A DNA stretch of 64,000 bases, from positions 13,362,916-13,426,915 of the forward strand of contig OX345637.1 in the NCBI GenBank assembly GCA_947044365.1, written 5' to 3'. The translations under genes were made by a program, and so were the position numbers. Positions 3,001-64,000 of this stretch are shown here, in pieces. A model generated the notes under the pieces. The model was not told where the DNA came from and ran no database searches. It saw only the letters and a list, made by a program, of their open reading frames with translations. The DNA comes from Petrosia ficiformis. Its lineage: Eukaryota; Porifera; Demospongiae; Haplosclerida; Petrosiidae. How positions within the stretch are numbered: position 1 is the stretch's first letter; every line of letters starts with the position of its first letter.

Positions 3001-5732
3001 ACAAGTGCTCTAAGCTTATGTATTATGTGAGAAAGGAAGCAAACAAATGGAAATTAGTTACACCCAAGCAAAAGGCAGCTAGAGTCCGTGCATCATCTGA
3101 TTTCCCTATGAAATATTTATCTCCAGCTAGTTTACAACAACAAAGGAACTTAATATAGAGGAAGTATTCATGGCAAGCTCAGGTGTCACCGTGCAGTGGA
3201 GACTACAAAAGTGCACCTCTCTCTATATGCAAGCATAAATTGAAACATAAGCCCTACAACCGGAAGAAGTAACAACTATTATACCATCCAAAACAATTAA
3301 GATTATGAAAGAATTAACATTATAATAGCACAGAATTAATTAGTAGTAATATAATTATACATATAACAAACAATATAATTACAGTTTTATTTTTGTTCAT
3401 GTATCAATGGCATATGTCTTCAATGTGTCCCTGAGAGCCATTTCTGGATCTATTGCTTTATTACTTGCTATCATCTCAAGCATGTCTTGATTTATCAGAA
3501 ACTGGTTTGCCATTGTATTGACCACCCGTGATAATAAATCTCTATATACATTAGCTATAGTATCAGATCTTCAAAACCACTAATTAGTTCTTCATCTTTA
3601 AGAACACACAGTTTTGTGAGTAAAATAATTCTTCTGCCTGATTGCTCTGGAACATTTGCACATAAATGGGATGAGTGCTTTGTAGGGAAATGTCATGTGT
3701 TGCAGATTTATTGTTGAAGGAAGAACAGACTTGTCAGTTTCCACACTGCTTGGATGGTAATGTTTGCGAAGCTGACCAAAAAGAGTTTTCTTCCTAAATT
3801 TTATTGCAGTGAACAAAGAAAACCCAAACAGCCGATACAGAGATGGATCATCATCTGGCTCTGTAATTCTTTCCATATCCACAGCATTTAGTTAGGTAGT
3901 TCTCCAGGTTGATTGTAATAGAGACACCTAAATAATAATGTTATATATCCTTTTACTATTGATTGTAGTCTTACCTGCTTTTGAAAAAAAGTGTAAGAAG
4001 CAGCAGCAACAGCTGAAATTAGAGCACTCCTGTCCAAACTTGAGATCTTCTCGCCATATTGACACTTTAGATAACTCCAAAGTGTACTCATGTTGTGTGT
4101 GGACAATTTGTCACAGGCTAGAGTACCTACTTCTTTGTACCATGCAGCAAGAAAACGACCAAAATGTTCTTTACCCATGTAAACAAAACCTGGCAGAAAG
4201 TTCCCTGCAACTTCCATATTTTCGGATTAGGCCTAGTCTTGATGTACTGCCACAGAGCTTGTCTTTTAGATATATGTTGTTCAACGTTTTCCACTTGTTA
4301 GATAACAAACGCCTCTATAACCTCCAAATCCAGTTCTTTTAACAGCTTTTCTATAAACAGAATTTCTTTCTTTCGCAATCTCTTCGCCATTTTCTTATAG
4401 TAATTATATTGATTGGAACGCCACACGTACTTAAATTGCAGAAGTGGGCATCCTTATATGGAAGTGAAACCTGAATGTGTTTCGACAACAGTTAGAACAT
4501 GAATATAATGTAACTTTCACGTTCCTTCACGCCGCTCATGGGCTCCTGATCTTCTTTATTAAATTTACCTAAATTTCACAGATATCAACCATCCATGACC
4601 TTTAATATCAGTGTAGAAATCAATCATAATATATGTTTGTCCCTACATAGTTTCTTTTAAAAATATCATTTGATGATGTAAAACCTTCCTTTGATAATGC
4701 ATTTTTTCCTGTCACAAAACTGCATCCTGCTCTCCAGTTTTTACTAACGGAGAAATTAACATAAATAGAAATTAATAAATTAAACTAATGAAGATAATTT
4801 ATACTTTTCAGTGTTTTTGTTGCTGTTATGCCCTTTGTACTGTACATTCAGTATGTTGTTGATTATGAACACAACACAACATAGTATAGTTTAAAAACTA
4901 TTATCACAAAACAGAGTATTGAACCTGTATGCAATTTTATATAGCTTTAATAAATATTATTATGGTATTATATTAGTGTAGGTACTTGTATTATGTAGGG
5001 ATAGCACTCAGAAAGTTAACTTCTCAATTTAAAGTAATGTATTTATTTCCCTCAATAGTTTCAATTACATATGTGTACATCGTTATTGGTGTCTGTGTGG
5101 TAGTAATAGTTTCTGTGTTGGTTATGATTCTTCTTTCTGTTCTTGTACATAAAAGATATCGACGCCAACAAAACAGTAAGTATTCATTTTTACTTTATGC
5201 ATTGAAAATAATGTTTGATGTGTTGTTGTAGCTCCTGAACAGAGACTAGAATATACACAAAATGTACAAGTAAGCTTATCAACATGCAATTATGCACTGT
5301 CTACTCACATTCATTGACATGGTGTGTAAATAAAATCACCATATAGCATGCAATCTTGGTGTACAATACACAAAAATAACATCTCTTTTGGGTGAAATGA
5401 TGAATAGGGAGGTAATCTGCATGATATATTTAACTTGCAACAAACTTATAGTAATAGCATGCTAGATATCTATTTCTCTGTGTTTTAAGGCATCTATCAC
5501 GCCTTTATTTTGATCAGATTAACTGTATATACTGTATTTCTTTTTGCAGGAAGCTAAACCACAGGACACAACAGATATCAACTCTGAATTAGTGGATAAA
5601 GACAACATTGAAGTATCTAAACAAGAAAGAATGACACAGACACCACCAATTACATCTAGCACTGCTCAACATAGTGTCACTGGTATACCTGTACCGGGAG
5701 GTGATGAGGAAAGTGTTACTATTCAAGTGTAA
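10..5732 (+). CDS. Gene 1: single-pass membrane receptor-like protein (5' partial)
   Basis: Seven exons can be followed: 10-92, 218-452, 917-1405, 1463-1522, 5059-5175, 5232-5269 and 5550-5732 (TAA). Each is bounded by AG and GT, and the phases agree (0,1,1,1,1,0). The first three encode an ectodomain module: a strand with PVVTG, then LCPGEYPTT, then a Cys-containing part ending YDLYVYDV. A Thr/Ser-rich stalk follows. Exon 5 encodes one hydrophobic helix ending in KRYRRQQN, a basic stop-transfer. The tail is only about 75 residues, with no kinase, ZU5 or Death domain. The module is repeated in gene 2 and partly in gene 3, so this is one family. The exon start at 10 follows CAACAG, so the gene begins outside the window; Ig and FN3 exons are probably upstream, as in genes 2 and 3. 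The 3.5-kb intron before the membrane exon holds a transposon. Function unknown; adhesion or recognition is a guess. Confidence 0.8.
1210..1405 (+). repeat. Coding minisatellite: Thr/Ser-rich stalk repeat
   Basis: About four imperfect tandem units of roughly 42 bp (one shortened to 33) lie inside the third exon of gene 1. Each encodes a variant of KTTISASSTVSTT. All length changes are multiples of three, so the frame stays open. Thr/Ser-rich segments next to a membrane helix are usually O-glycosylated stalks. The open frames on the other strand here are shadows of this repeat. Confidence 0.85.
1770..2110 (+). repeat. Dispersed repeat R1, copy 1
   Basis: Roughly 330 bp align by eye with 30195-30510 in the same orientation. 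Shared landmarks include a stretch about a vertebrate-like TAATAGAACRTGC, GCTCTACAGA, and TCAGC.AT.ATTACTGAATG.TGGA. It lies in an intron of gene 1 and ends exactly where the 2121-4548 element begins, so that element inserted into it. No protein is evident. Confidence 0.65.
2718..3158 (+). pseudogene. Transposon-internal open frame, unrecognised
   Basis: A 146-residue open frame inside the 2121-4548 TIR element. It contains a Cys pair (CDKCSKL) about residues 95-101 and a basic C-terminal part. The frame directly upstream (about 2555-2729) is open in a different register and reads like a continuation, which suggests a frameshift or a missed intron. I do not recognise the family. Confidence 0.35.
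3598..4217 (-). pseudogene. Transposon-internal minus-strand coding remnant
   Basis: Two adjacent minus-strand open frames (4217-3888 and 3882-3598) read toward the plus-strand frame of the same element. Possible splice acceptors lie between them. The text has a protein-like composition (for example FLAAWYKEVGTLACDKLS) but no motif I can name. It may be the second gene of the transposon. Confidence 0.3.
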
Positions 5733-31631: not shown

Positions 31632-31829
31632 GGGTGCTTCCCAAAATGTGTAATCCCAAAATGTCTACATGGTCTAGGGTGTACGGTCTAGGGTCTAGGG
31701 TTTAGGATTTAGACTCTAGACCCTAAACCCTACACCCTAGACCCTATAGGGTCTAGGGTCTAGAGTCTAGGGTCTAGGGTCTAGGATTTTCATTTAGACA
31801 TTTTGGGATTAGACATTCTGGGAATGATT
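31632..31829. mobile_element. Small TIR element with TCTAGGG interior
   Basis: The ends TTCCCAAAATGTGTAATCCC and its inverse (GGGATTAGACATTCTGGGAA) enclose about 110 bp of TCTAGGG/CCCTAGA units with a few CCCTAAA and TAGGGT. The units are arranged in both orientations. The flanks repeat CTCTCTATG (31623-31631) and CTCTCTGTG (31830-31838), a 9-bp target duplication with one change. R3 copies elsewhere lack it. Confidence 0.8.
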
Positions 31830-33750: not shown

Positions 33751-34310
33751 ATATATATGTTCATTATGCTTAAACCATGACTGCTATGCGTTTCCACCTG
33801 GCTGTAAGAGTTCAAAATAGCACACTGCTATTCTTAAGTGTTCTTGCTCTATACTATTCCATTAAGCCTAATCTCCAGTTTGCTTCACAAATAGTGATGT
33901 ATATCCCAACCAGTACATCTTTATAGTAAAATGATGCTGTGCTGCATACAAAACTTGCCACCGATGTATGGTCAACAGTACATGTAATTAATATTTGAAA
34001 TTAATAATTATTAATTATACTTTTTACTAGTATTGAGGGTTTTGTACAGGATGGCATTCAATTGTGAAAGTATCAGTTAATAACAATAATTATTTATTCA
34101 AGGGCATGTATGCATATACCACTCAATGTACACATACCTCTTTTATGGAAAGTATAGTATATACAAAACTATACAGCAAAATAATTAATGTTAATTTATT
34201 TCCTGTTTTAATCTCTTTGAGACCATGAATAGTTCACAATACATGTGAGATAATTATGCTAATTAATTATACTCTGTCACATTTTGCATGCATCTACTTA
34301 TCTTCAATAG
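33751..34310. other. Region upstream of gene 2's Ig exon
   Basis: No exon with a start codon and signal peptide is visible here. The Ig exon at 34311 has an ordinary acceptor (TCTTCAATAG), so gene 2 must begin farther upstream. Confidence 0.5.
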
Positions 34311-37300
34311 TGATTTTGGAATATCCTGAGAACACAGTTGCTATTAATGGTGAAAGAATAGTTTGGAAATGCAAGGCCAAAGGAAGTGATGTAATCCAGT
34401 TTTTGGTAAATGGCACATTTGCTTCTGAGGAAACTCTTGAAGATAAAGGATTCGTACAAGGTGTTACTGACAATATTGATAGCACAACAAAACAAAGAAA
34501 TCTTACTGTAACTGCATTAACACAATATAACAACACTGAAATACAGTGTGTTGCAATTGATATTAACCAACCAAGTATGCCTATACATAGTGATATCGCT
34601 TTACTGTTGATACAAGGTATGGATGATTTATCATAATCATGGCTTTACTTATTAATCTTAAATCACAGGTCCTTTATCATCAGTTGTTGATATATCTCAT
34701 AATTTTATTGATTCCTCAAGTATAAATATCTCATGGAAACCACCATTCACTCTTCCTGGGACGCATATCACTGGATATAACATATCAGTTACTAGTATCA
34801 TGTTCAATATATCTCAGTTTATTACTGATACTTACTATGTGTTAACAGCTCCTAATAATACTGATCCATGTGATGAGATCAGTATAACAGTATCAGGTTA
34901 TAATGGAGCCGGGAATGGAGAAATGACTACTATATCATCACTATTTTTTCCTGAAGGTTATAAACGTTTTGTTGCATTATTCATTGCTAACAACATTGAT
35001 TATTAGTTATGAATGTGTATTTATGTTGTTTGTATTGATTAAAATCATGTCATGCATCCTTTTCTTTCTCTTGGTCAACAGTACCTACTCTTGATACCAA
35101 TATTCAAGTAACCTTTGTACCAGTAGTCACTGGTCAAATGGTAACAATAACGCTGTGTGTAAATGTAAGTTGATGGTTATAATACTGTATATTATATACA
35201 TAATTATGTAATTATGGAAATTAAGGGTATTAATGTGTTAGACAGAGTATCATACAACCCGTAAAGAGAGTGTATGTACTGTTTTTCCCAACTGCAGTAC
35301 AGTCTCCCACTCACACTCTTAACAAACAAAAGGATGTCTGGTGACTCTTGATTTAATCAGAATGCTCATGCCATAGTTTCTTAAGACAATGAATGAAACT
35401 CCATGAGAAATGCAAAAAATAACTCCACGTATACAAATTGCAGGATTATTCCGGTATACTACTCCATGCTATTCTTGCTACATTAGATGGTTTCTATAGG
35501 GAACCTATAACATATATAGCAAAAGCAATGCCACAGATCTTGTTAGGATTAGCACAACTAGAAGACTATTATCCATTACATTTCTGTGTTTTAAACTGTA
35601 AAATGATGATTTGTCTCCAGGTAGATAATGAGTTGATACACCATAATTATGGAACTCAAATTAATAATTATGAATCTATAAGATGCCCATACAACCTCTT
35701 TTTTTTCATGTTAATAACTGTATATGCTTACTATGTTACAGTTACACAAACAATTGTTGATTGCAAACATAGTAATTGTTTTTCCATTTCAGCGAAATGT
35801 TGATGGCTTAAGGTGCAATTATCATTCCACACACCCTCTTTATAATCCTGCATTTGGGATGCAAGCCTATAAGCATATGTGTATAGTCAAACAAGATTAT
35901 AATAAGTATCATTCATACTTACATATCCACAGGTTAGTCAACTATGTCCTGGTCAATATCCCACTACTACTGATATATTGCTTACTAATTCAACTGATGA
36001 CATAGTTGAACACTTTCATGATGTACCGCTTGAAGTAGAATCAGCGAACCATCTACTTAAACCTATGGATTCCATCATACTCAAGCTGGATGTTAGTTAT
36101 ACTGTACAAATGACTTTTAGTAATCTGGATGGAGAATTTCATGTGACAGCTTTTGTTAACTCCAGTAAGTTAACACTTGAAAATCAAGTGACTATGTTCT
36201 ATATTGCCTTTATATTTTAGTGACACATGATATTCAGTCATTTGATATAACTAATACTAATGGAGGAAACGTTTGTGTGGTGTGTAGATTCTCTGCAAAT
36301 ACTACTGCAGTTGGTTGTGAAATAAAGTTGCTACGAATTAACATTTCTATATTATCAGAAAAGTTTTATAGAGATGTCAACATTGCTGAGGGGTGTATAT
36401 CAAATATTACTACTGGATATTATGACTTGTATGTATATGATGTTGAGAAAGATAACACACTGAGTCCATTACCAGCTATTATTAAGAACAATATATTTAT
36501 ATATGAACAAACTGCAACACAAATGGCAACAACAACAGCAATTTCACTTATGTCAATTCAGCTGTCAGTCTCGACTTCATCTGGTTAGTTCACTATGTGT
36601 AAAATAGTTATTTATCAGTTATAAAGAAGACATGCCTGCCTATCGGTAATATGTCTAAAGCATTTAGTAAATTGTATATATATATCCTTTATTGTGTCAA
36701 TATTATTCTATTGAGAGAGGAGGGAGATTTTGAAGATCTGTGTATTGACAAAAAAATTTATCACTTGCAATAAAGCTGATGAATTTATCAGTTGTGTGCT
36801 TAATCATTCTTGTATGTGTTCAATCCAGAAGTAGTTCAAGCATTTTGTCAATGATTTTTACTTCTGTTACATTAGGCAATGCTTCACCTACACTAACAGT
36901 TCCAGAAACAGAAGATAATAATAGTAATCATTTGGGTAAGTTATTCAATGTTGCTATGAACATCAATTATAATATAGTACATACTGTAGGTGCTGGGATA
37001 GGTGGAGCAATATGTAGTACTTTGATCATTATCCTCGCCTTCATCTTGTCAGTTTTAATTATGAGAAGACAAAGTGAGTTTTTTTAACTGGTAAAAAATA
37101 ATTAGTTACATTTACATCATTTATTTGATTATAGAAAGAAAGAAGAAGCACGATGGGTAAATCTTTAAATGTATACTAATTAAATATATAGTAGTGTTGC
37201 ATATAGATGGTACTAGAAATAGCCCAAATAATTGACTATTTTTTATTTATTAAATGAAGGTACCAAGTTGATCATAATGTACAGTATACAACGCCAACAG

Positions 37301-37542
37301 AGGTACTGCATGTCATTGAAAAGTGTTGTACTAATCATATTTATAATTATGCATGTAAATAATTATTTCTTCCTGAAATTCTTATAGTATACACCTGAAT
37401 CTCCAAGACTAAAATTCCCACAAACTAAACAAGGTCAGTAAAATATATAACATAGCCAGAGGACTGCATGAATGCTGTAATTTGAAAATGATTATGCATT
37501 ATTTATAGGATATACCCCAGTTACAGAGAAAAGACATCAGCG
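34311..37542 (+). CDS. Gene 2, part a: ectodomain, membrane helix and proximal tail
   Basis: The Ig exon has [20 protein letters not shown] and ends ..[12 protein letters not shown], the two Cys of an Ig fold. The FN3 exon has [20 protein letters not shown] and ends SGYNGAGNG, classic FN3. Next come [18 protein letters not shown] and [12 protein letters not shown], closely matching gene 1. The membrane helix is at 36990-37073 ([18 protein letters not shown], then RRQKRKKK). Five small tail exons follow, including [14 protein letters not shown] and [10 protein letters not shown]. Several N-x-S/T sites suggest glycosylation. The Ig exon carries a complete V-frame-like core, but Cys spacing was not measured against a profile. 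Confidence 0.8.
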
Positions 37543-40500
37543 GTAAATTTTAATTTATTGTATAATTTGTTTTCTATTTTACTTGAACTATAAACTGATC
37601 AACTGAATAGAACTAAACTTACATTGATATAATATTATATATATATATAACACATATATCATGGTTATATTTCCGCGTACAAAAATAGTACGCGTTTTAG
37701 TATATTCTATTTAACACCCACAGGCTAATATTTTACAATATAAACTATAAACCTGAAAAGAAGTTTATATTTGAAATATATACTCGTGGGTGTGGTTACA
37801 AGCAATTATATATCACTTTTCAAAATGATTACACAAAAAAGAAAATGAACTTAGAATCAATTACAAAAATTCTCAATGAATATTAAAGTTGATTGTGCAT
37901 CCTGTAAGGTTTTGAAAGTTGAACATCTTGTTCTCTTTATCTTCACCAGAAGGCAGTGGTAGCTTTTCAATGGATTGAAGAGTTGCAAGCTTGCGCGTAC
38001 TTGTGTCTGTTTCCTCACACTGACTGGAAGCTGTTTTCATGGCATTAGTTGATGACAGAACCTTAGAAACTTCCATTCTCTGAGCATCTGTTGTCCTTTC
38101 ATAGGATCGAACCCCTCCAATACTAAGGTGCCCACTTCGTTCCATTATCATCTTTTCAGGGACTCCTCCTGCGTACATTCGGGTAATTCCTGAAGCCCTT
38201 AAACCATGATTGTTGATGCCAGTTGAGTCCAATCCTGCTGCTATGAACATGTCCTTCAATCTACGTGAAAGTACATTATGACCAACAAGAATATTGAAAT
38301 ACCACGATGTATCTTCTTTTGTGATTGTTTTTTTAGGTTTGCAATAAAAGAGATTTCTGCCCTTTGCATCTTCTGGCAGAAGTGATACATAGCGTTCAAA
38401 CAAGTTGACGAAACATCTCTGACAAAGTGAAGGATTAGCATACTGTGTAACCACTTTATTTTCCAAATGGACCTGGTGAACAAATCCTTGTCTGTTCTTT
38501 GATCCATGTTCAGCATATGTAACAGATCTAATTGTCTCCCCTTCTGTAGTGGGATGTGGCACTTCTTCAATTTCAAACTGATTAAGCTTCAAATCTCTAT
38601 GTTCAACACCACCACGGAGACAAAAACATACCCCACAATAGAAAAAAATCGCATTCTGTAACGAAGTGGGTGAATGTGTCCCCATTACTCCCTTATTCCA
38701 CAAAGTTTCCTCTTCTTGTGAAGTAACAACTCTTGCTTGTTTCTTTTTTGCTCCTACTCCATCAGTGAGCAACTTTTTAGAGTGATTGTTGAGTACATGA
38801 TGTAGGGGCTTAAACACCTGATCATCAGTGTCCAAGAAGTTCCTGGCAGTGGGATTTTGGTTGCTCGCATAACTCTGCAAATTGATGAGTAGCTGCAACA
38901 GAGTCTTGGGACAGTATGGTTCACCCGAGCGCTGTTTCGCCTCAACAATAAATCTACACAACATTTCACAAACTTTCTTCGAATCAGCTTCGTTCCATAA
39001 ACGTTCAACTTCGACCTCTGGCCAATCGTTACTTCTAACCCATTCCTTAAATACATTCAATGCCCATCTTTGAGACCACTCTGTATTCTTACTCATTGGC
39101 TTCACTTTTAATGATTGCATTTCTTGGTCTGAAGTCTTTACAAATCGCTTTTTCAGTGGACTTGCACTGTTTTCTTCTTTTCTACGCTTCAAAGACAAAG
39201 AAAGACGCTTCTTCTTACGTGAATCTTCACTACTCTCGCCTTTCTCGGCCATCGATCAATGAAGATGAGGGAACTGAACTGTCTCTACGTTCTTGTGAGA
39301 ATGTGACTATGTCTATACTGCACATGCGCAAAAATGCAAAAATGGCGTTGTCAGAAAAATATAACCGTGATATATATCAGATATAACATGATTTTTCGAT
39401 CTATATTATAAAATATAAATCTGGCAACTCGGGCCTATTGCTAGAGATATCACCCTCGGGCCTGCGGCCCTCGGGTGATATCTCTTAGCAATAGCCCTCG
39501 TTGCCAGGTTTATATTTTATCATATACACCTCAAAATCATGATATATATTATACATATATATATATATACTCAACTACATGGAATAATCTAGAATGTTTC
39601 AGAACATACAAGGAAAAAGCAGGCCTGAACAACAAGTACAAAGCAAACAATATATACAATTAGGTGATAAATATTACACAAACAATCGGTCCAAAAAATG
39701 TTTTATCCATCTACACTCCTTCTCATTTGAGGGCTGATTGTTTGTCTATTTCTTTTATTCCTGATATTTCTCTCAGTTTAGTAAATTTTTCACTGTCTAG
39801 TGCCTTTGTAAAAATATCAGCAACCATATCTTCTGTCCCACAATACTTTACTTCAACTGTTCCTTTCTTAATTTGGTCTCGAATAAAATGATGTTTTATG
39901 GCAATGTGTTTAGCTCGTCCATGAAATTGTGGATTCTTACTCATACAAATAACTGACCGTGTTGTCTTTGTATATAACTATTGACTTCACTGGTTCCTTC
40001 TTTATTTCACTGACAAGTTTTCTGATCCATAATTATAGCTTCTTGAGCTGCATTTGCTAAAGCTATATATTCGGCTTCTGCAGTTGAAAGAGCTACACAT
40101 GGCTGTTTTTTACTTCGCCAACTGACAGACGTACCACGAATTTGAAAAAACAAATCAGACGTTGATTTCCGATCATCAAGATCGCCGGCCCAGTCTGCAT
40201 TCGAGTATCCAATGCACTCTTGAGACTCAATTTTCCTGAACACTAGACCAACATTGATAGTACCTGCCAAATACCGCAGTATCTGCTTTATAGCCTTCCA
40301 ATGCTGAGCAGTTGGTCTGTTACAGAACTTTGCTACATACAACACAGCAAACGCTATGTCTGGTCTAGTTTTGGTTGACAGGTATAGTAGTTTTTCTACA
40401 GCTGATTGATATTATCCTTGATCTACTTCTTCACTTTCTTCAAGTCCTATTGTCAGCTTCAAACTGGGGTTGACAGGAGTTTTCGTCGCCTTCACATTTT

Positions 40501-43500
40501 CCATTTTAAACTTCTTTAGAGTACTTTCTATATACATTGGTTAGTCTATCCATATCATTTCAGTTTTTGGATTCTGAATTACTTTAACTCCTAAAAAGTG
40601 ATGAAGTTCACCCATGTCTTTCACCTTAAAACGTTTGGCAATTTCTTCCTTTACTTCAGATATTCACTCAATGCTCTTACCAGCCAGTAGTATGTCGTCC
40701 ACATAGACTGCTATGATAAACATTTCTCCTTCTGAACTTACATACAGACAAGGATCACTGGTTGTCTGAGTGAATCCCATCTTCCTTAGATGACAGTCAA
40801 GGATAGAGTTCCAGCATCGAGGTGACTGTTTAAGGCCATACAAACTGCGTTTTAATATACAAACTAGCTTCTCACAACCTTTTGCCAGAAATCCCTCTGG
40901 CTGTCTCAAATAAACTTCTTCTTCTAGCTCTCCATTGAGGAATGCAGTTGTAAAGTCCATTTGGTGAACTTTTAGTCCATTCTGTGCCACTACTGCAATT
41001 ACTGTTCTTACAGATTCGAATCTTACAACTGGAGAAAAAGTCTCTTCGTAATCCAAACCAGGTCTTTGTGAGTACCTTTGAGCCACAAGCTTAGCTTTGT
41101 AACTCTCAATCTCTCCACCAGCACCTATTTTACATTTAAACACCCACTTACTATTGATAAGTTTCCTGTTCTTTGGCATTTCTACCAACTCCCAGACATC
41201 ATTTGAGTGTAACGATTCCAGTTCCATTTCCATAGCATTTTTCCATTTTTTTCCATCAGGACTTGATAATGCTTCATCCACTGTTCTTGGCTCCATTAGT
41301 TTACCAGCAAGACTTACCCATTCTCCATAGAAATCTGAACATCTTTGTTCCCTGTCTGAATATCGTAAAACAGGTTCTTCTACATCTTGAACACTTGATT
41401 CTTCCTCATTCACACTATCAATTTCAACATACTGTTGCTCCTCACAACACTGAGGCTCCTTCTCAATTCCACGAGGTTTCTCATGAAAATGAACATCACG
41501 ACTATGACAGACCTTTTACATACAGTCGGTATCCTTTTCCATTTTCACAGTAACCTAAGAAGATACACTTCTTTACCTTTGAATCCAGTTTCATTCTTTT
41601 ATCTTTGGGAATATGTGAATAGGCTACTAAACCAAATACCCTCAAGTGATCCATTCTAGGTTTTTCAGCTGTCCATGCTTCAAATGGAGTTTTGTTTTCT
41701 AGTGTTTTTGTCGGTAATTTTGCTTCAGCAAGCATTGATCGTACCATCTCTACCAGAGTACGATTCAATCTTTTGACCACCCCATTTTGTTCAGGTGACT
41801 TAGGAACAGTCAGTTGATGCTTAATTCCATTTTGTTTCAAATAACTTTCAAATTCATCAGAAGTGTGCTCACAACCATTATTTGAACGTACCACCTTCAC
41901 AGTCTGGTCAAATGATTTTTCCACTAATGTCTCCCATTCTATGAACTTTGCAAAAACTTCACTCTTGTGCTTCAAAATGTATACCCATACATAACGAGTA
42001 CAGTCATCAACAAACATAACAAAATACTCAGCACCACTAAGAGACTTTTCACTAATCTTTCTGCACACGTCACTGTGAATAAGCTCTAAGGGCTTCTTTG
42101 ACCGACTTGTACTGTTCACTGAAAACGGGCTTCTGCGATGTTTTCCATTCACACAAGGTTCACAAAAACCAATCCTCTTAGAAACATCGTAGTCAAATCC
42201 ACTTACCAACTCATCCACAGCTAGCTTACGTAAATTTCCTTCTCTTTTCCACTGTCACGTTCCTTTTCCACATTAACATACACACCGAAGGTAACTGGAA
42301 TACAATCGATATGATAAAGGCTTCCTACTTTAGATGCTACACCAATCAACTGTCCACTTCTGTCAGAAATCTGACAGCCTGCTTCATTAAATGTAACAGT
42401 CTTTCCTTTTTCGGTCATCCTCAAAACACTAAGCAAATTAAATGACAGCTTAGGTACATACAAAACGTTTGCACCTTTTTGTTTCACCATGATGCAACTG
42501 CAGTTCCAGCAAAACAGATCCTCAACCAATTGCATGAAGTGCTTTTCCATCCCCCAATGTCACTTCCAGTGGCTGCTTCAAACTATTCAGCTCCACAAAT
42601 AAATTGCTGTCATAACATGTGTGGCATGTCGCTCCTGAATCCATGATCCAGCTTCCCCAAAGAGTACTGGTTGTTTTTGCAGACAGGGCATGTCTTACAA
42701 CCAGCCCAATGGTATCACTATCAGAGCTTTCAGTATCTTGTTTCTTTACTTCAGTTTTATGGACTCTGTGTTTGGTGCTTTTCTTCTCCCATTGTCCAGA
42801 AACTCTCTTCTTCTCACGTTCAAGGCAATATGACCAAGCTTCTTGCAGAAATAACATTTTGGTCCTTTTCTTCGATGTCTGTTAGAAACAGTCATAACTT
42901 CTTCTGAATTTGTAGCAGTTGTTCGCTCCTTTAGTTTTCGTTCTTCATGTAGCAATCTCTCCATCACAACCTCCATTTTGGGTACTTCCGAGTTTGCCTC
43001 CAGTGCTGTTACTAACATATTGTACGATTCAGGTAAACTTGCAAATATTTGCACTACTCTGTCTTCCTCGCTAATGGATTCGCCAACCACTGATAGCTCG
43101 TTGAAAATTTCTGTCATAGCTCTCATGTGTTCTTGTATTGATTCACCTTCTTTCAGTCTCAATGAATATAGTCTATGACGAAGTGCTAACTTGTTGGCCC
43201 ATGACCTTTCCTGAAACTGACTGGCCAGTGCTTTCCAGACATCTGTGGGATCCTTAGGCTCTCCAATCAGGTACAGCAATGACGGCTCCAACGGACAAGA
43301 CAATAATGGCTAATGCTCGGTCCCTTCTTGCTTCATATTTCGAGATCCTTTCAGCATTTCCAGTTGGTGCTTCTTCAGTACAACTAACAATGCCCCACAG
43401 TCCATCCTTCATCAAGGACATCTGGCACTGTATTTTCCATGTAGGATAGTCTGAACTATTTAATGGTATAACACTAACTGTTTTAGACTCCATTGCCATC

Positions 43501-46500
43501 TTATTATATTTCTGCTGCATTCACCTGCTTCAGAGCGTAGCTGGGCTCATAACCTGTTGGCTATTTTACTTGAACTATAAACTGATCAACTGACTAGAAC
43601 TAAACTTATATTAATATATATATATATATATATACTCAACTACATGGAATAATCTAGAATGTTTCAGAACATACAAGAAAAAAGCAGGCCTGAACAACAA
43701 GTACAAAGCAAACAATGTATACAATCAGGTGCTAAATATTACACAAACAATCTGTCCAAAAAATGTTTTATCCATCAACATAATTAACATAATTTATTAG
43801 TGAATATGGGTATATATATAGTCTTCAGCTAGCCTACTCCCCCACTAACAAATAGTCACCCTTCTGATTCAATAACTATATGCTATTATGAGTGATTTCA
43901 TACAGGGTTAAATTGAATTTTCCTGTCTTATTTTGACTCCGATTACACAGGAAATCACCTAAGAAAATCAATATTCCTGGGTAGGAGGGATCATGGCCCT
44001 GTGTTTCAAGATTGGAAACACCCACGCACTTCTGGTGCAGTCCATGTTTCAATTATTTTTAATACATGCATGCTAGCTAGTTGTATCAAATAACAGAGGT
44101 AATTTTTTTAATAGATGCAAATATCTGTAAGCATAAAATTTGACAAAAGTGTGAGTGCAAAACACCAAGGTAAATAAAGTGTGTTTTGCATTCATTTTCG
44201 AGAAAATGGTTGATTTAAACACAGTTGCATTTAATTTCTTACACAAAACATTGTTGAAACTATATAATAATGATATTTTAACAAGTGAAAATCACCTTCA
44301 ACAGTTGAGTTCCTTGAGATAATAAATGTAAACTGCTTTTGCATTTCGGTAATAAAATTTAATTGACAAATTGTAACACGGAATTCATCTGAGTATCTTA
44401 ATCCACATCCATGGGATCATTGTGCATCCTTTCCAATCCCTTATACGTAGTCTATATGTTCATAGTATGTATATGTGTGATTTATGAGCATGCTCAGTAG
44501 TGAACACGTTACACAAGCATTGTATTGCCCAACAGCAGTCCCATTTTAATATCAGGTCTTCTCTCCTGTACTCTATAGTGAATGACCCAAATAAATTATA
44601 GTTTGTATGTTCATTTTAACTGCGAATATTATGGCAACTATCTGCTAAAGGAATTAGCTTAGCTAGAAATCATACCCTAGCTAGTCATTGCTTATTGGTA
44701 AATAACACAATTGCCAGATTTTTCCTCAAAGTTAATGTTCAGTTCACCATAATTATATAGTGAGAACTACACCCTGTTTATACACAAATAGTTGGTTATA
44801 AATTGTACATTCTGTGCACCAATCAATTATCACTCTACAAGAATTAATTATTATAAATTCATTAAATTAAGGTACCAAGGAGATTCCAGTGATAGTGAAA
44901 TGTCAAAAGATGACAGTCAGAACTATGTACAGATTACAAAACCAGCAGAGGTACTGTAGCTAATTCAAAAGTTAATTATGTTCTAATAATAATATATGAT
45001 ATATATAATTATATTTTTATTCTAAAATTCTTGTAGTATTTAAATGAATCACCAAGACCTCATCTACCAACATTTCTACAAATTAGAGATTCCCAACCAG
45101 GTCAATAAAATATGAATCCTGAGTATAGTTGAAAATGATTAGTATTGTAACTTGAGTGTACATGTATGCAGTCTGTATGTTTGACCCTGAATATTTGGTC
45201 ATCTGAAATTAAAGGGAGAAATAAGTAATAATAAATTACTCAGTCATGAATTAAAGGGTTCTGGTATAGCATCTTAGATGACCAAATTCTTGACACTTAA
45301 GTCATAATCCCTTTCTCTATTCATTAATAAATTCATAGAGAAATAATAAAATTACACACATAGACACATGCTGTGTAAAGGAATTAAATACAATGTCATT
45401 TTAAGCATTGTATTAACATTATAATTATAGATCTGTCATTAGATGAAAATGGATTATTCCATCATTGTTACAAATATGGAGTTACAATCATTATACCTCC
45501 TGGAGCAGTTGATCAAAAGTGTACTCTACAATTTGGAGCATGTTTAAAATTTCCTCATTATAGATCTAAGGAATCATTCATTCCAGTTTCTCCTTTTGTA
45601 TGGATACACATTGATGGAAAGTTGAAAAAACCTGCTGAATTATATATTCCACATTATATCCATATTAGCTGTGATGAAGACAAGGAGAAATTATGTCTCC
45701 TAACTTCGAAAGACCATTCACATGGAGAGGAAGATATTGATGTGGATTACTTTGAAACATCAGCCAGAATTGCTACAACCCACTTCTGTTCTGTTTGTAT
45801 TGCAAGTAAATGTTCACCAAAAAAGAGGTATCATTTACTTTTTGCAGAAAAGGTTGAAAATGGCAATATACATCTTGATGTATGTATCATGTATTCTCTG
45901 ACAATATGCCAACAGGTAATGAATACTTAGTTTAACAGTCAATCCTATCAGTTTGTGCACAATACAGAATGCTATGAAACAATATGAAGAAACTGGACAT
46001 AAAGTGACTACATATGGTTCAGTTTTTGTTAAGGATGGTGGTAAGATTACTGTTCAATGTGATCCCACTGTTGTTCCTGGTTGGGTAATGTCATATAGAG
46101 GTGTTCATTATACTACTGTGAGTTCACAGTAGAGAATGACATAATATATAGAGTTATTTTAAACTGCTTAGATAATTGAAGACATGATTGATTTCTATAA
46201 GGTACTAGGTTGTACTCCAGACACAGTGTCTGATGATGATATTGAAACACTCAAAATGTATGAGGAACAGAAGTCATATCCTCCACGTTTCAAACTCGAA
46301 TTTTCCCCTACTGGTTTACAAATTAGAAACACTAAAGTGAAATTAACTCTGTGTGAACTTCATGCCATATGTCTAAATGGACCTCCAGTTCATTACAATG
46401 TGACACTAGGCAACAAAGAGACAGGTGAATGATATGTATAGGATATAGCCCTAGTTGGAGGCATATATGGGCATATAACATCCTTGAGATAATTGGTCTA

Positions 46501-48135
46501 GGGCTTGACCAATTATCTCAAGGATGTTACATGCCCATAACTGCTATTTTATACCATGGTATTACAAAAGTATGCAATTAAATCACATTTGAGATCACTG
46601 TTGTCAAGTAGAAACTATAGTACTATGCTAATTAATGTATACTGTAAAAACTGTGAAATTACACAAGATGATTTAGTGGCTGTCTGCAGGCATGTTATGG
46701 GCATATATCTCCCATGGTACATCATAAGTTACCATGGTGATTGCTTACGCACCGTGGTATAAAATTGTATAAATTATAACAATGCTGATGTAAGAATGCT
46801 ACAATTAGTGAATATGAAAAAGTGAAACTAAAAAATCAGTGGTAATCTGGTATACACAGGTTCATCTCCAATAAAACCAAATTCATCTAATAGGTCAGAT
46901 GCTTTATTTGATTCAGTATTATATGAAGGTATATACATATACACTGTAACAATTGGTGCATGACTTTAATATCATTATACTATAGATGCTGTTTCAACCC
47001 CAACGTTATCTGTTCAGGAACCTGATGAACAACCTGCTACAGGTGGTAAGACAATGTAATTGATATATGTATATAAACACTCCATCTTCATAATATCTAT
47101 ATGTAGGATCTGGTAGTTTCATCTTTGACCTAATGAATTTCTTAGAGCTGAAGCTGCAACCACGTTGGCTACATTTTGGTCATTGTCTAAAGATTTCTCT
47201 CCTAGATCTTCATAAAATTGAATTGAATATTGGTCATGATAAGAAGCGGTGTATACAACAAGTGTTGCTTGTGTGGAGCCAATCTAATCCAGCTGCATCG
47301 TGGGAGCCAATAGCTGAGGCATTGAAGCAATGTGGATTCTCTTTGCTCTCAACTATTGTTACTAAACAATATACAAGTCATCAGTCTTTTCATGGTCTAG
47401 AATATGCTTACTATGATGTGCTAGCCTCTATTTCAAGTATGTCTTTTGTTTTTCATGAGGTTAACTAACTATGAAATTCGTGGAAAATGTAATGTTTTGT
47501 TGGGCCCAAAATATATATTTCAGATTTTGAGTTATACTTTTAATATGTAATGCATTCTAATAGCAATAGTTTATAAAGTTTCTTTTTTGTGGTGCTATTT
47601 TTATTAATTGGAGTATATTAAGGTTATACTGCATAATACACCACAAGTGACAAAAGCATGTAGTTACACATAAAGCAATCATAGAAATGATCATGAATAA
47701 TTGACAATTCAAATCTCATTCATACTTTTGTAAATCACATTCCATATAGTTACTTCAATGCTAACCATTTTATTATTAAAAAAAAATCATTTTTCTACCA
47801 TAGAATCTCCATTACTACATAAGGAACCTGACATCGCTATGCTGAATAATCTTGTTGGTGCTATGATACCTACAAAATGGGAATTTTTCGGACAACAAGT
47901 GGGAGTAGATCAAGAGTGTTTAGATTGTATTCGTGCTGATTATAAGGATGATAGTAAACAGCAATTTAATCGTGTATTTATTGAGTGGAAAAGGCGTAAA
48001 TCTTCAGATTTTACATGGAATGCACTGTATTCAAAAGTGATCAGTGAATACTCTTTAGCAGAAAATATTTTGAAAACCTTGAATGTACCTGTGGATGTTC
48101 ATGATGAAACCCATCCTAAGGAAACAGAAGTGTGA
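34311..48135 (+). CDS. Gene 2: UNC5-like receptor, Ig-FN3-TM-ZU5-Death-Death
   Basis: Twenty exons join with consistent phases: 34311-34616, 34679-34956, 35082-35164, 35933-36164, 36221-36583, 36876-36935, 36990-37073, 37135-37156, 37260-37302, 37388-37433, 37509-37542, 44872-44950, 45037-45100, 45431-45915, 45968-46117, 46172-46424, 46860-46928, 46986-47045, 47107-47436, 47804-48135 (TGA). Order: Ig, FN3, PVVTG/LCPG module, membrane helix, basic and Tyr-rich tail, ZU5, probable UPA-like region, two Death domains. UNC5 netrin receptors share the TM-ZU5-UPA-Death tail but have Ig and thrombospondin repeats outside. The Copia insertion at 37568-43780 lies in the 7.3-kb intron between exons 11 and 12; the CG|G phase across it supports one gene, but two separate genes cannot be excluded without transcripts. 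The 5' end is missing or at 22839. Confidence 0.7.
37650..39386. mobile_element. Recombinase-bearing insertion in the Copia LTR
   Basis: The insert separates LTR text ending ...ATAATATTATATATATATAT (about 37650) from text resuming ATATATACTCAACTACATGG (about 39560). Near the two ends of the recombinase unit is an inverted pair: ATATATCATGGTTATATTT (37654-37672) and the complement at 39356-39378 (AAATATAACCGTGATATAT). Cryptons usually lack inverted ends, so this pair is unusual. The exact insertion edges are blurred by TA repeats. Confidence 0.6.
37873..39252 (-). CDS. Crypton-like tyrosine recombinase, intact 459-residue ORF
   Basis: A single open frame from ATG to stop without interruption. 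The N-terminal 60 residues are basic ([15 protein letters not shown], probably a nuclear signal). A core-binding region follows ([13 protein letters not shown]...[17 protein letters not shown]). The catalytic domain shows Arg in [11 protein letters not shown] (about residue 215), HGLR (about 350), SGHLS (about 372) and Tyr in SYERT (about 381): the R..HxxR..H..Y tetrad of tyrosine recombinases. This matches Crypton / KCTD1-type (DUF3504) proteins common in sponges, cnidarians and molluscs. It ends with a CTINFNI tail shared with the truncated copy at 27673. It sits in the LTR of a Copia element, so it arrived later; the open frame suggests recent activity. A host gene of the KCTD1-like repeat class is the alternative. 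Confidence 0.85.
   Translation of the reverse strand: MAEKGESSEDSRKKKRLSLSLKRRKEENSASPLKKRFVKTSDQEMQSLKVKPMSKNTEWSQRWALNVFKEWVRSNDWPEVEVERLWNEADSKKVCEMLCRFIVEAKQRSGEPYCPKTLLQLLINLQSYASNQNPTARNFLDTDDQVFKPLHHVLNNHSKKLLTDGVGAKKKQARVVTSQEEETLWNKGVMGTHSPTSLQNAIFFYCGVCFCLRGGVEHRDLKLNQFEIEEVPHPTTEGETIRSVTYAEHGSKNRQGFVHQVHLENKVVTQYANPSLCQRCFVNLFERYVSLLPEDAKGRNLFYCKPKKTITKEDTSWYFNILVGHNVLSRRLKDMFIAAGLDSTGINNHGLRASGITRMYAGGVPEKMIMERSGHLSIGGVRSYERTTDAQRMEVSKVLSSTNAMKTASSQCEETDTSTRKLATLQSIEKLPLPSGEDKENKMFNFQNLTGCTINFNIH
39387..39555. repeat. Palindromic element with GC-rich centre
   Basis: Long imperfect arms (AAAATATAAATCTGGCAAC and GTTGCCAGGTTTATATTTT near the core) close on GATATCACCCTCGGGCCTGC, GGCCCTCGGGTGATATC. 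It lies between the recombinase gene and the rest of the LTR, so it is either part of the inserted element or a second insertion. Confidence 0.75.
39715..39731 (-). promoter_or_regulatory. Polypurine tract of the Copia element
   Basis: The minus strand reads AAATGAGAAGGAG directly before the 3' LTR start TGTAGATGG. The same GAGAAGGAG precedes the LTR of the Copia fragment at 13479. Confidence 0.75.
39723..43520 (-). pseudogene. Copia gag-pol, frameshifted
   Basis: Gag starts near 43520 ([20 protein letters not shown]). There is a frameshift near 43280 and another inside the knuckle [10 protein letters not shown] at about 42850. Protease has MDSGATCH (42670). The integrase section (42218-41502) keeps HSDVC but the second catalytic Asp reads RSNNG instead of the usual D, and the Glu of the third motif is Lys ([10 protein letters not shown]), so it is inactive. 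The reverse transcriptase (41413-40664) keeps YVDDILLAG. RNase H text (40345-40007) and the C-terminal tail to about 39723 follow after a stop. It can no longer move on its own. Confidence 0.88.
43533..43554 (-). promoter_or_regulatory. Primer binding site: initiator tRNA-Met anticodon arm
   Basis: The plus strand directly left of the LTR reads GTAGCTGGGCTCATAACC, which is the anticodon arm text of eukaryotic initiator tRNA-Met (GGGCTCATAACC with the CAT anticodon). The minus-strand RNA would therefore pair with a tRNA half cut in its anticodon loop, the known priming mode of Drosophila copia. Confidence 0.75.
43555..43780 (-). repeat. 5' LTR of the Copia element
   Basis: 226 bp, bounded by TGTTGGCTATTTTACTTG (left border on the plus strand) and TTTTATCCATCAACA. 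It includes a (TA)n tract. The matching 3' LTR pieces are at 37568-37650 and 39555-39714. Confidence 0.9.
43786..44871. other. Intron of gene 2, right of the Copia insertion
   Basis: No exon or repeat was recognised. It ends at the acceptor AAATTAAG before 44872. Confidence 0.5.
44872..48135 (+). CDS. Gene 2, part b: cytoplasmic ZU5 and tandem Death domains
   Basis: Two tail exons ([20 protein letters not shown] and [13 protein letters not shown]) precede the ZU5 exon 45431-45915, which has [11 protein letters not shown], the hallmark ZU5 start, and [20 protein letters not shown]. Exons 45968-46424 ([32 protein letters not shown]) fit the position of a UPA domain but the match is weak. Two low-complexity linker exons lead to Death domain 1 (47107-47436: [17 protein letters not shown] and [14 protein letters not shown]) and Death domain 2 (47804-48135: [18 protein letters not shown] and [14 protein letters not shown]). 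The Trp positions of the Death fold are present in both. ZU5-UPA-Death units elsewhere regulate apoptosis or NF-kB style signalling. Confidence 0.8.
46456..46766. repeat. Nested hairpins in an intron of gene 2
   Basis: The arms ATGGGCATATAACATCCTTG and its inverse (CAAGGATGTTACATGCCCAT) lie at 46456-46530 around TTGGTCTAGGGCTTGACCAA. A second pair, TTTTATACCATGGTA near 46545 and the complement of ACCGTGGTATAAAAT near 46751, encloses the next 200 bases. The short open frame at 46556-46762 falls inside and is probably not coding. Confidence 0.7.
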
Positions 48136-58654: not shown

Positions 58655-61600
58655 TCAAAGAGGAATAAAACATTTCTCAACATTTTCAAATTGTGTTGCT
58701 CCTTCAACTGTATAGTGTCCATCGATGTCAAAATCAAACTAACATGAAAAAAATACATTTGTTGTAATCTCTATGCCTCCAGTTTTGATTCACTATAAAT
58801 TATAGTAAGGTTTAATCCATACATGGCTTACATGAATCTGAAGGCCTTCGTACCAAAGAGGTTTATTTGTAATAAACAATAATAAAGTACAATTAACTAT
58901 ACATGTACTCTAACTGGTATGAAGCAAGTGGAGTTCAGATGTCTGATTTGATATTGCTATTTAACTTTCCTACAAACAAAATAATGTACACTTTCTATCA
59001 TTTTTCATAATAGGTCATAAAAATTAGCTTTAGCAACAAACATTTTACATTAAGCTAATAACTTCATGAGATATACCATTATTCTATCAAAACTAGAACA
59101 TAACTTGTAACCATGGTAACAAATAGAACTATTGCTTGTAGCTACTAGTATACAGTGTTTCAAGAATAGAGGGTGACTAGCTAATAGCTGGCTTGCTTTA
59201 TGTGTCTGTACCCACATTTTCTAGCTTGTTTCGAGCCTATTGCTGGCAAAGCACTGCTTCAAACAGGTAGTGCCACAATCTAGCTCCACCTAACAATTAT
59301 GGGATAATTAATAACGTGAAGGTTCCTGTTTTTTCTTAGGACTGGAGAGTCTAACAATTAAGAGCAAAACATATGAGTATGGGCATTTTTTTATCGATAA
59401 TCTGTTTTGTATAGTGAAGGTTGTGTGTAATCAGATGCGTTAAACTTACTGTATCAATGCATCCATTGAATCCTTTAACAACAGCCACTTGAGGATAGTC
59501 AGTAAGTGAGTTTGGAATATTTCCAATATACAAAAACCCACTTGATAATTTGACATAGCTGTTGGAATGTGTCTGTGTCCCCTGGATATCCTATTGTAAT
59601 GAAATACAATTAGTACTTCTTTTGTATGATCATTGTTTACTTAATCTTTATAATTACGATATAAAAAGAATATAAATGGAATCAAGGATGTGGACATTGT
59701 AATAAAAATTAGTATATTCAACAGTTATATGCATTCACCTCTAGTAGTCCCAGATCTACCAGGTTTCCATCTATCTCAAGAAATACATAATTGACTGAAG
59801 ACAAGTAAGTGACTTTTATGGTGTGCCATACATTTAGATCAACAACTGATGTTCTGTGGATACATAAATGATTATTATATATTTATTTGCCTAAATGCAC
59901 AGGCCAACGTATGCAGTATTATTGTATGCTCCTGTTATTGAGATTCAATTATAATTATGTTAGAGTTATTATTACAGTAGCAATTCACTAAGCAAGGTAA
60001 GTATATATATATTGCCATTAAAAAATTTAATGCTTTTAAGCAAATTCAAGGGTCTGAGAAGAATAAAGGAATAGGCATACAATGTGTACGTATCTCAAGA
60101 TGAGAGGTGAAGAAATATCAAAAAGGAAGTTTGCTGAAATAAAATTCTGATATAAATAGCTAGCCGTTACCACACGTTTACCTCATCAATTAAATAGTAA
60201 GTTCATTCTACAGTAATTATTATTGAACATCATAGAGAATATAATATAAGATTACATAATTTATATGCATTTCTCCCAAATATTCCTGTTTTAATCTTAT
60301 TTGGGCAATGTCTTGTACTCACAAAATTAGCACGCTACACATATTTATAGGAAACATGTATATACATAATACTCCCTAATAACAAATGCAAAAATGCTTA
60401 GACTTACCGAAGAAGAATTTTGTGGTTTCCAGTACTCATGCCAAATTCCACACTTTGCTCCCTCATCTGTAGTAAGATATATGATCCACTACCATTACTG
60501 TACTGTGAAGCAAACAATAAAAGCCCAGCATTATCTTGAGGATGAAATGAAGTTTTCAGAACTATACGTCGTATTGAACGATAGAACTGTGTCTGGTACT
60601 CTACATATCCAGATCCATCAAACTTCCAACCTATAGTGAGCAACTCTGCAATGTATAGTAATGACATTCATTATGACTGACTTTCAGGTAAAAGTAAAAT
60701 AGAATTAGATTACCAAAACGTAATCCAAGCTAGGTCATGCACTATGCTACTTTGTTATTTTAGTAATTAATTTTGTCATACGAGTACCATCCTGACCTTG
60801 TTCTGCATATGTTTTTTTTGTTTTGATATAATATATCCCTATCCATTACAATTATATCATATTTTCAATAAATAGTCTATAATAAAATAACTACTATAAT
60901 ATTTTATTAATGACCACTTACTGAAGTTAGTACTACTAGTAATATTAAACTTTCCATCCAGATTACTAAATGACACTTGTATAGTATATATCATGTCTGA
61001 TTGAAGTGTAATGGTATCCACAGTAGTGAGGACATGATCTTGTGATCCTTCCATTAACATTACATCATTAATATTTTGTATTGTAGTATCATCAGTTGAA
61101 TCAGTAATCAATATATCAATAGTAGTGGGATATTCACCAGGACATAGTTCACTAACCTGTGAAGTATTTGGTATGTATATATAGTAACATACTATATAAT
61201 ATATACACATATTGATCACATATGCTTACATGAGTATGTGCATACAGACCAATCAGTTTACATAAATACTTACAAATGTATACAAACAGTTTACTTACAT
61301 CCACTTGCAATGTTACTGGGAGGAAAATATTATTACCAGTGACTACTGGTGGAATGGTTACTGGTATATTGAAATCATCTGAAGGAACTATCAAGAAAAT
61401 AGTGAATTCAAGATGCCACAATAAAATATTAATCACAATTATTATATACTCCACTCTCTACTCCATAATTAAATATAGAGGAGCATATATCAATTGAATT
61501 AATAACTTTTCATGCAAAAACAAAGTTGTTAAAATAACTAATTAATTTGTTAGCACAGTTGCAACACTGTAAAAAATTGTTTGTTGTTTCCATCAATTCG

Positions 61601-62681
61601 TATGGTTTGTTATATACAATGTCATACGTCTATAAGTACTACAGTATGAATAATGTGTGCCCCCTATAGTACAGAGTTATGCTATATCATGTGACAAAAG
61701 TTTACTATAACTAGCTGCTTTGACAGTGACACTGTTACTGTCAAGCAGTACTTGTTTTACAATATACCGAGTTACTTAGCTGCATTGACAGTGACACTTT
61801 CTATCAAGCAGTATGAATGACATCTAGCTTTGCAGCTTGCTCTTCCTTCATAACAATTTTTTATGTTTAATGTCTATAATTATAGAAATGAAATTCACAT
61901 AACCAATTAAAATGGTTAAAATAACAAATCAGTTTTTACAGTGATATAGGAATATACCAATAAAGTTAGTATACTCTATTGCATTATAGCATTATAAAAC
62001 ATTTTGGTTATATTAATTATTTGTATACCTGTTTGAAAGTATAGTGATGATATAGTAGTCTTTTCTCCATTACCTGCTCCATTATAACCTGCTACTGTTA
62101 TACTGATCTCATCACATGGATCAGTATTATTAGGAGCTGTTAACACATAGTAAGTATCAGTAATAAATTCAGATATATTGAACATGATACTAGTAACTGA
62201 TATGTTATATCCAGTGATATGTGTCTCAGGAAGAGTGAATGGTGGATTCCATGAGATATTGAGACTTGAGGAATCAACAAACTTATAGCGTACAACAACT
62301 GCTGATAACCGATCTAGATTTTAGAAATGGTGGATAATCATGATTTCAGTGGTAAAAGAATGTCATCTTTACCTTGTACCAATAGAATAGCTGTTTCACT
62401 TACTACTGTGAATAATTCAATACCAACAAAATTCCAAGCTATACAGTACACTTCAGTATTATTGTATTTTGTCATAGCAGTTGCTGTTAGAGTTCTTCTT
62501 ATTGTAGTATCATTCAGATCTTCAGTAAGTTGTTGCATGAAACCTTTATTAACAACAATCTGGTCTGATGCAGACGTGCCATTCACAAAAAACACAATCA
62601 GACTTGCTTCCACAGCAACACAGTTGAACTCCACTTCATCACCATTAACAGCATTAACACTGTTAAATACGTTTAATAATT
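58655..62681 (-). CDS. Gene 3: Ig-FN3-LCPG module-laminin G protein (5' partial)
   Basis: Exons, 5' to 3' on the minus strand: 62681-62373 (Ig; VNGDEVEFNCVAV...NTEVYCIAW), 62313-62029 (FN3; [20 protein letters not shown]), 61387-61299 (PVVTG), 61156-60922 (LCPGEYPTTIDILITD), 60645-60408, 59853-59739, 59590-59450 and 58738-58655 (stop TGA). Phases agree throughout (1,1,0,1,2,0,0). The last four form one laminin-G domain: WKFDGSGYVEYQTQ, DNAGLLLFASQY, LEIDGNLVDLGLLE, GFLYIGNIPN, FNGCID and ENVEKC, the closing Cys pair. No membrane segment follows, so it may be secreted. Ig and FN3 exons are close relatives of gene 2's. The 5' end with signal peptide was not found and may be outside the window. 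Confidence 0.82.
60790..60845. repeat. Possible solo end of MITE subfamily B
   Basis: In an intron of gene 3, CCTTGTTCTGCATATG, TTTTTTTGTTTTGATATA and ATATATCCCTAT resemble the right arm of the 10361-10665 MITE. The match is short. Confidence 0.35.
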
Positions 62682-64000
62682 CTGTGAAATAAATACAAGT
62701 GCTTGTTCAATCTAGAATATATACACTAACAATTATTATAAACTATATGTGTATTAATTATGACTGCAAATGAGAACTACAGGCGCCTCACTTGCTATAT
62801 AATAACATACCCTCTCATGCTTTGTAAAATTCATAAATATTTGATGTATATATAATTTTGCATAATAATGGCTGCGTCTACTCCAGTATAATATGTACAA
62901 CTGATGATGCTATAAAGATACATGTGCCCACAACAAACTTGGACAGAATATACCTTGTTGCCAAAAAGGTAAATGGCATCCAAACAAAAGAATACTCAAC
63001 TCTGTGTGCATGAAGTGTGTCAATGATTGAAAATGGAGATTTAAGATTAGTCATACATAATTATCTGTTTTTGCTTCTGTGTTCTATCTGTTAGTGAATG
63101 TGAGTATATACTCTCAAAATTTGTCGATAGCACACTGGATTAGCTGCTCTATAAAATTATTACTAATAAAGTTTTGAACATAACTTTGCTTCTATGGAAT
63201 TCAAGCCACAAATATAGCTTCTCACACTATTAGTTAATGGGCCAAATGATTGTTCTATATGAATGATTGAGTTCATTTACTAATTACTTAATGATGTACA
63301 TCATTGTTCATGACCAATTAATTTACTAGTGGGGGTAGCTGTGGATACATTCCTCATTGTGACCATAATTATACACTTCATACTTCACTTTTAGTAAATG
63401 ATGCATATAAATATTCCAATGTACTATAAATGAATTTAAAGATTACAAATACTTATGGAGTTGTGTACTCTAGGTAACATAGATCACCAACAACATTTTA
63501 CCTTTATTACATGGCCACTATTCAGCAACAAAATTAATGGTACATTGAAGTTGTTTCGAAACTTATATAACCAATCAAAAACTTACATAAGCTTGTGTCT
63601 CTTATGATTTCAGTTTATAATAGAAATGTTGGAACACTGATTCTTAGCTCCAGTCAGCAATATTGGTGATGTTGCTCAAATTGTTTGCTCCTGGACAGAT
63701 ATTTTTAAAATGATCTGCCTTTTGTAAAATGGTCTAAAGAATTAGTTACCATGCTAAAGTAGAGGCAGTAATGGGGTTTGACCATGCTGATGAGACACTT
63801 TTGTTTTGATCTCAGATAAATTGGTAGGTTTTATATTCATTTGGGAAGACAAGAAAATAGAATGAATAGTTGCCATGTTTCTCTGATATGGGCTTTCCTG
63901 ATAGTGCTTTCTCTTAGAGAGTTCTGTAATTGCATGGATAAATGTAGTTAATAGAGGACATGCATAAGTGCTGGTAATGACCTGCTGAGCACTGTAGAGG
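62682..64000. other. Upstream side of gene 3; no exon recognised
   Basis: An acceptor (TTTCACAG on the minus strand) precedes the Ig exon, so more exons exist to the right. None with a signal peptide or domain was identified up to the window end. Confidence 0.45.

Follow-up and report, generated by a model that had tools for sequence, protein, structure and literature searches.

A probable sponge receptor that joins an Ig-FN3 ectodomain from a chromosome-2 gene cluster to a ZU5, UPA-like, Death, Death tail

UNC5A-D carry a transmembrane helix followed by an intracellular ZU5, UPA and single Death domain, and expose immunoglobulin (Ig) domains and thrombospondin type 1 (TSP1) repeats on the outside; for UNC5b it is known that ZU5, UPA and Death form a closed arrangement (structure 3g5b). 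In sponges, the genetic basis of self/non-self recognition has to our knowledge not been established. Here we describe a gene at positions 34311-48135 of a window, by which we mean the whole 64,000-nucleotide stretch analysed (C2:13362916-13426915), on chromosome 2 of the Mediterranean stone sponge Petrosia ficiformis (a demosponge), assembly odPetFici3.1 (GCA_947044365.1). It probably encodes a type I membrane receptor that arose as the union of two separately expanded sponge families, one providing the Ig-FN3 ectodomains clustered on chromosome 2 and the other a tail of ZU5, UPA-like, Death and Death that recurs at 24 loci. The most plausible reading is that of a Death-signalling receptor produced by shuffling and situated in a candidate recognition cluster; judged by its domains, it may link cell-surface recognition to a death or alarm signal.

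PMC12648040 gives 35 scaffolds and 191.25 Mb for odPetFici3.1, and the genome searched here comprised 29 contigs and 191.22 Mb. Since the genome searches score best candidates only, all genome counts below are lower bounds. The exon model was assembled manually from the genomic letters and features are on the plus strand unless mentioned otherwise. Manual splicing yields one gene of 20 exons with a single open frame, GT-AG at all internal junctions, phases that chain throughout and a stop codon at 48133-48135, which confirms the claim of an earlier note, made from the letters of this DNA, that 20 exons with matching phases form one gene. A tandem paralog about 60 kb upstream (L033) is collinear and, over the stretch that could be compared, exons 2-19, conserves the splice dinucleotides, save for the exon 7 acceptor that is shifted by an indel. 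The encoded protein has 1172 amino acids when a putative leader exon at 33777-33912, a signal-peptide-like stretch with a fitting outgoing phase of 1, is counted. The leader is the weakest exon of the model, and the DNA before the L033 Ig exon revealed no counterpart of it. From N- to C-terminus the domain order is Ig-like, FN3, module A, module B (FN3 fold), membrane helix, duplicated tyrosine-bearing juxtamembrane exons, ZU5, UPA-like, Death and Death. The same note was thus right to describe a single-pass receptor with an Ig-FN3 ectodomain, an UNC5-like order of ZU5, UPA-like and Death, and a duplicated Death domain.

Exon 1 (34311-34616) encodes the Ig-like domain, which varies among members of the chromosome-2 cluster and which Pfam identifies weakly (Ig_3, 16.7 bits versus a cut-off of 30). 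Exon 2 (34669-34956) encodes the FN3 domain, with an fn3 score on the whole protein of 24.6 bits (E 3e-5), slightly below the cut-off of 25. Exons 3-4 (35082-35164 and 35933-36164) form module A, which has no Pfam match. Exon 5 (36221-36583), module B, had been presented as a family-specific module; it is instead a divergent FN3 fold and no new fold, and a protein search with it gave 249 matches. A short stalk conserved in L033 (exon 6, 36876-36935) is followed by the transmembrane helix GAGIGGAICSTLIIILAFILSVLIMRR, read directly from the sequence of exon 7 (36990-37073), and by the basic and tyrosine-bearing juxtamembrane exons 8-11 (37135-37156, 37260-37302, 37388-37433 and 37509-37542). Exons 12-13 (44872-44950 and 45037-45100) repeat the exon pair 9-10, as seen in their sequence and in a cross-match of 44979-45116 to L033 5190-5315, and tyrosines are present in both copies of the pair.

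FN3 exons like that of the gene occur at 78 distinct places, partial and stop-bearing matches included, between 13.22 and 15.18 Mb of chromosome 2, with a median spacing of about 13 kb. The same stretch holds 61 full-length Ig matches besides the window gene, several of which may be pseudogenes. Matches outside chromosome 2 are few: one Ig row on C14 and one FN3 row each on C1 and C12. Near-full matches were used for pair comparison (62 of 106 Ig rows and 73 of 113 FN3 rows, window gene included), short and distant rows being omitted. In identity to the window gene the Ig exon is less conserved than the FN3 exon in 57 of 57 exon pairs, with medians of 45% (31-61) for Ig and 89% (81-95) for FN3, the latter also being the median over the 72 near-full FN3 relatives. 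Ig remains the lower in 55 of 55 pairs once three FN3 rows with one stop are removed, and in 55 pairs the distance between the Ig and FN3 starts is 311-628 bases (median 347). Synonymous divergence (dS) per exon between the window gene and five others, four of the five partners being shared, is 0.06-0.16 for FN3 and 0.47-1.13 for Ig. Such a low FN3 dS beside a high Ig dS suggests that conversion or exchange has homogenised the FN3 exon, rather than selection having acted alone. Distant Ig relatives (26-38% identity) are found at C2:10.6-13.0 Mb, which is possibly an older part of the cluster.

The tail starts with exon 14 (45431-45915), which encodes the ZU5 domain and the start of the UPA-like region, and the latter continues through exons 15-16 (45968-46117 and 46172-46424), placed by position and spliced alignment. 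Exons 17-18 (46860-46928 and 46986-47045) form a linker, exon 19 (47107-47436) encodes Death domain 1 and exon 20 (47804-48135) Death domain 2 and the stop. Of the Pfam domains that the earlier note had expected, Death and ZU5 were recovered, fn3 fell just short as described above and UPA gave no match. Death scored 36.6 bits over two stretches of the whole protein, against a cut-off of 22.6 (19.9 bits for exon 19 alone, 27.8 for exon 20 alone), which places the gene in the Death-fold superfamily by profile. ZU5 scored 18.8 bits in the whole protein (cut-off 21) and 23.1 for the exon alone, above the cut-off. Alignments were made of 19 near-full ZU5 exons (A1), 16 and 6 Death exons (A2 and A3) and 9 of 18 spliced models (A4); 15 of the 16 aligned exons of the exon 19 type match Death at E up to 0.1, and the exon 20 profile reaches THOC1, CRADD and FADD. 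A profile of the ZU5 exon reached weakly to the ZO-1 ZU5 in the PDB (E 0.057), and fold comparison of a structure model supports ZU5 as well. A PDB search with a single ZU5-UPA sequence gave no row resembling a relative, and a protein search with cytoplasmic residues 500-1172 gave nothing at E 0.001. Position and length of the UPA-like region fit UPA, and by these it is putatively identified; a UPA search of the genome gave no match anywhere, the controls being silent as well.

A ZU5-UPA search of the genome itself identified 24 tail loci on four chromosomes, grouped by eye from 61 matching stretches with omission of four weak matches (28-34% identity; C1, C4 and C5). A near-full ZU5 exon is present at 19 of them (5 on C2, 6 on C1, 7 on C12 and 1 on C4), the five partial loci all being on C12. 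At 21 of the 24, both Death exons follow on the same strand at no more than 4.5 kb downstream. A same-phase splice of the ZU5-UPA exons exists in all 18 loci tried, which, with phases imposed and similarity maximised, shows only that such a splice exists. The ratio of nonsynonymous to synonymous divergence (dN/dS) to relatives is 0.51-0.77 for ZU5 (8 pairs) and 0.33-0.62 for Death 1 (7 pairs). A search with a nine-row ZU5-UPA alignment gave 48 protein matches from ENA. Thirteen of them share 37-50% identity with the window gene and are probably proteins of other sponge species, an indication that the tail is not confined to this one. At L052 (4990-6575; C2:1.6 Mb), some 12 Mb from the gene, lies an ectopic 1.6-kb copy of its 3' end with 85.7% DNA identity, introns included, and no ZU5 in the 7.4 kb examined; DNA-level movement of segments is therefore another way in which tail exons spread.

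The cluster span includes five tail loci. Four of these are preceded, at a distance of 4-11 kb on the same strand, by cluster ectodomain exons, although in one (L047) FN3 and the modules were found and no Ig; the fifth (L039) has, by eye, a cluster-like membrane helix. Upstream DNA was inspected at 9 of the 19 tail loci outside C2, over roughly 4.3-6.5 kb each. L038 shows three Ig domains above their cut-offs and a membrane helix, L036 and L037 long single-exon open reading frames (ORFs) with membrane helices that are unlike each other, L035 a cysteine-rich ORF with a helix (EGF-like, 14.3 bits, below cut-off) and L040 a repetitive stalk and helix. About 3.7 kb upstream of the ZU5-Death-Death relative on C4 (L050), and on the same strand, is a Death effector domain (reverse strand 2423-2740; 38.2 bits, above the Pfam cut-off), the domain type of FADD and caspase-8. 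The order and orientation of these elements suggest that one tail is found under different ectodomains at several loci. Conversely, tails differ among cluster members: the left neighbour in the window seems to finish with a short one, and in five sampled members (L041-L045) the 3.4-6 kb examined contained neither ZU5 nor Death exons, a more distant tail being possible, as in the window gene. The tail of L045 contains a VVYSKL motif that fits the consensus of the immunoreceptor tyrosine-based inhibitory motif.

We infer the following chain from ligand to caspase. The variable Ig domain would bind a surface ligand, and clustering of the receptors by this ligand would open ZU5-UPA-Death, which would otherwise be kept closed as it is in UNC5b. 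Released tandem Death domains could then nucleate a FADD- or CRADD-type assembly that would feed caspases or an NF-kB-like response, and the duplicated tyrosine-bearing juxtamembrane exons may contribute SH2-dependent regulation. More tentatively, and as a possibility on the doubtful side, the chromosome-2 cluster could be a sponge recognition locus for self or microbes, in which gene conversion keeps the FN3 scaffolds alike below an ever-changing Ig. A few members, including the window gene and its tandem partner, would then form a killing or alarm arm by means of the shared ZU5-UPA-Death-Death tail that apparently also lies under other ectodomains.

Intron 11, between the end of exon 11 (37542) and the start of exon 12 (44872), contains a block at 37568-44763 that on its minus strand has an open 460-amino-acid DUF3504/tyrosine-recombinase ORF as well as copia-type ORFs, one of which scanned as integrase. 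The size of this insertion, 7.2 kb, in a model built from genomic sequence could speak for two genes that meet near 37.5/44.8 kb, as the earlier note had allowed for, or for a gene that the block has disrupted and put out of function. L033 follows window 34304-37567 collinearly and resumes at 44764, with about 270 bp in place of the 7.2 kb of the window; since it keeps both halves in order without the block, the two-gene reading loses its ground, and the exon phases chain across the block too. We therefore find a split or broken gene scarcely credible, and the block is best read as a mobile-element insertion inside the intron. That the gene is a divergent UNC5 netrin receptor, in which TSP repeats were swapped for FN3 and the Death domain was doubled, we regard as improbable: the cytoplasmic ZU5 of UNC5 is present, whereas the combination of Ig and TSP1 outside and the single Death domain are not, a search of the whole protein for TSP_1 giving no Pfam match at E up to 1. 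Membership of UNC5 fails on these two features, no TSP1 and two Death domains, which can still be combined with an UNC5-like working. The choice between a divergent relative and an independent assembly, both of which had been offered before, now favours independent assembly, because the tail occurs at 24 loci, apparently under other ectodomains at several, and because the ectodomain belongs to a large cluster whose five sampled members are without ZU5 or Death in 3.4-6 kb.

The strongest rival to a Death-signalling receptor is one for adhesion or self-aggregation, whose ZU5-UPA-Death tail would serve, like that of ankyrin, as an anchor to the cytoskeleton or to a scaffold and would not signal death. 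Sponge cells sort by means of surface molecules, the Death domain of ankyrin is not apoptotic and the folds nearest to the modelled ZU5 are those of ankyrins. The named Death-profile matches, on the other hand, are THOC1, FADD, CRADD, TNFR1 and PIDD, only THOC1 being below E 0.01, and there is no ankyrin among the matches listed; the Death effector domain near L050 likewise speaks against an anchor, which we hold to be rather unlikely. Self-cleavage of ZU5 as in PIDD1, UNC5CL or FIIND proteins is suggested by a weak FIIND match that 18 of 19 members share and that stays below cut-off in the window exon, and by the end of ZU5, which reads HFCS, with F and C invariant in 19 of 19, where these proteins have their HF|S site. 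In HFCS, however, cysteine replaces serine and the histidine is retained in only 11 of 19, which ruled out autoproteolysis as the leading reading, and a PIDD1-like locus in the same genome (L002) retains HFS; self-cleavage appears very improbable.

Several observations weigh against the proposed Death-signalling receptor and its place in a recognition cluster. The gene model was derived from genomic sequence and paralog comparison, and the Ig exon is under every Pfam cut-off. Foldseek with the ZU5 model gave no match at E 0.001 (best 0.0084), and PF17217 (UPA) matched none of nine spliced sequences. At three of the 24 tail loci one or both Death exons are lacking within 4.5 kb: at one of them Death 2 lies only 8 kb away, and at two partial loci neither exon is present. 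Linkage of ectodomain and tail at the other loci consists of order and orientation, three of the nine inspected loci outside C2 (L048, L049 and L051) have no recognisable ectodomain upstream, and the Death effector ORF at L050 may be part of another gene. Positive selection on Ig was sought and not shown, dN/dS to the window gene being 0.51-0.76, and the variability of Ig is that among paralogs of one genome. For FN3 (0.28-0.82) and exon 5 (0.48-1.32, the highest value being against L033, with few changes) constraint is weak.

The window contains two further cluster members. To the left, at 101-5729 on the plus strand (by eye, unspliced), module A (in 101-457) and module B (in 874-1407) are followed by a membrane helix at about 5020-5170 and a short tail to a stop after 5729. 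To the right, at 60860-62706 on the minus strand, are an Ig-like domain, FN3 and module A. Behind this right neighbour, at 60667-60407 on the minus strand, is a LamG-like ORF (14.4 bits, below cut-off), perhaps another ectodomain combination. At 31680-31790 there is a brief run of gggtcta-type repeats, telomere-like in look.

Overall the earlier interpretation is partly supported; the more interesting part, which was beyond its reach, is how large both gene families are and that the Ig varies. Sponge recognition becomes a testable question now that a cluster has been located in which the Ig varies while its scaffold stays nearly constant and in which some members carry a Death-type tail. That one tail is apparently plugged under several ectodomains further suggests how early animals may have put ZU5-Death signalling together more than once. 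No published description of this receptor family was recognised by title or start of abstract in the open-licence literature. Among known systems, UNC5 shares with the gene the transmembrane helix, ZU5 (by fold as well), the position of the UPA-like region and the C-terminal Death, whereas the gene described here has no TSP1 repeats, an FN3-type ectodomain, two Death domains and a tail at 24 loci. Ankyrin (ZU5-ZU5-UPA-DD, DD being Death) and PIDD1 differ from this membrane receptor, which has one ZU5, no ankyrin or leucine-rich repeats and no HF|S site; the PIDD1-like ORF at L002 (703 amino acids) has ZU5 above cut-off, leucine-rich repeats below cut-off and HFS sites retained. The Alr allorecognition cluster of Hydractinia is alike in that it comprises numerous Ig-type receptor genes side by side, whose outer domain is variable and whose tails differ, and many clustered Ig-type receptor genes and an outer domain variable among paralogs are indeed what we find on chromosome 2; here, in contrast, FN3 modules are present, the Death tail is on a few members and the variability seen is that among paralogs. 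Sponge Ig-TIR receptors, named in PMC12909245, likewise have Ig outside and a signalling domain of innate-immunity type inside, whereas the tail described here is ZU5, Death, Death rather than TIR and its ectodomain comes from a large cluster.
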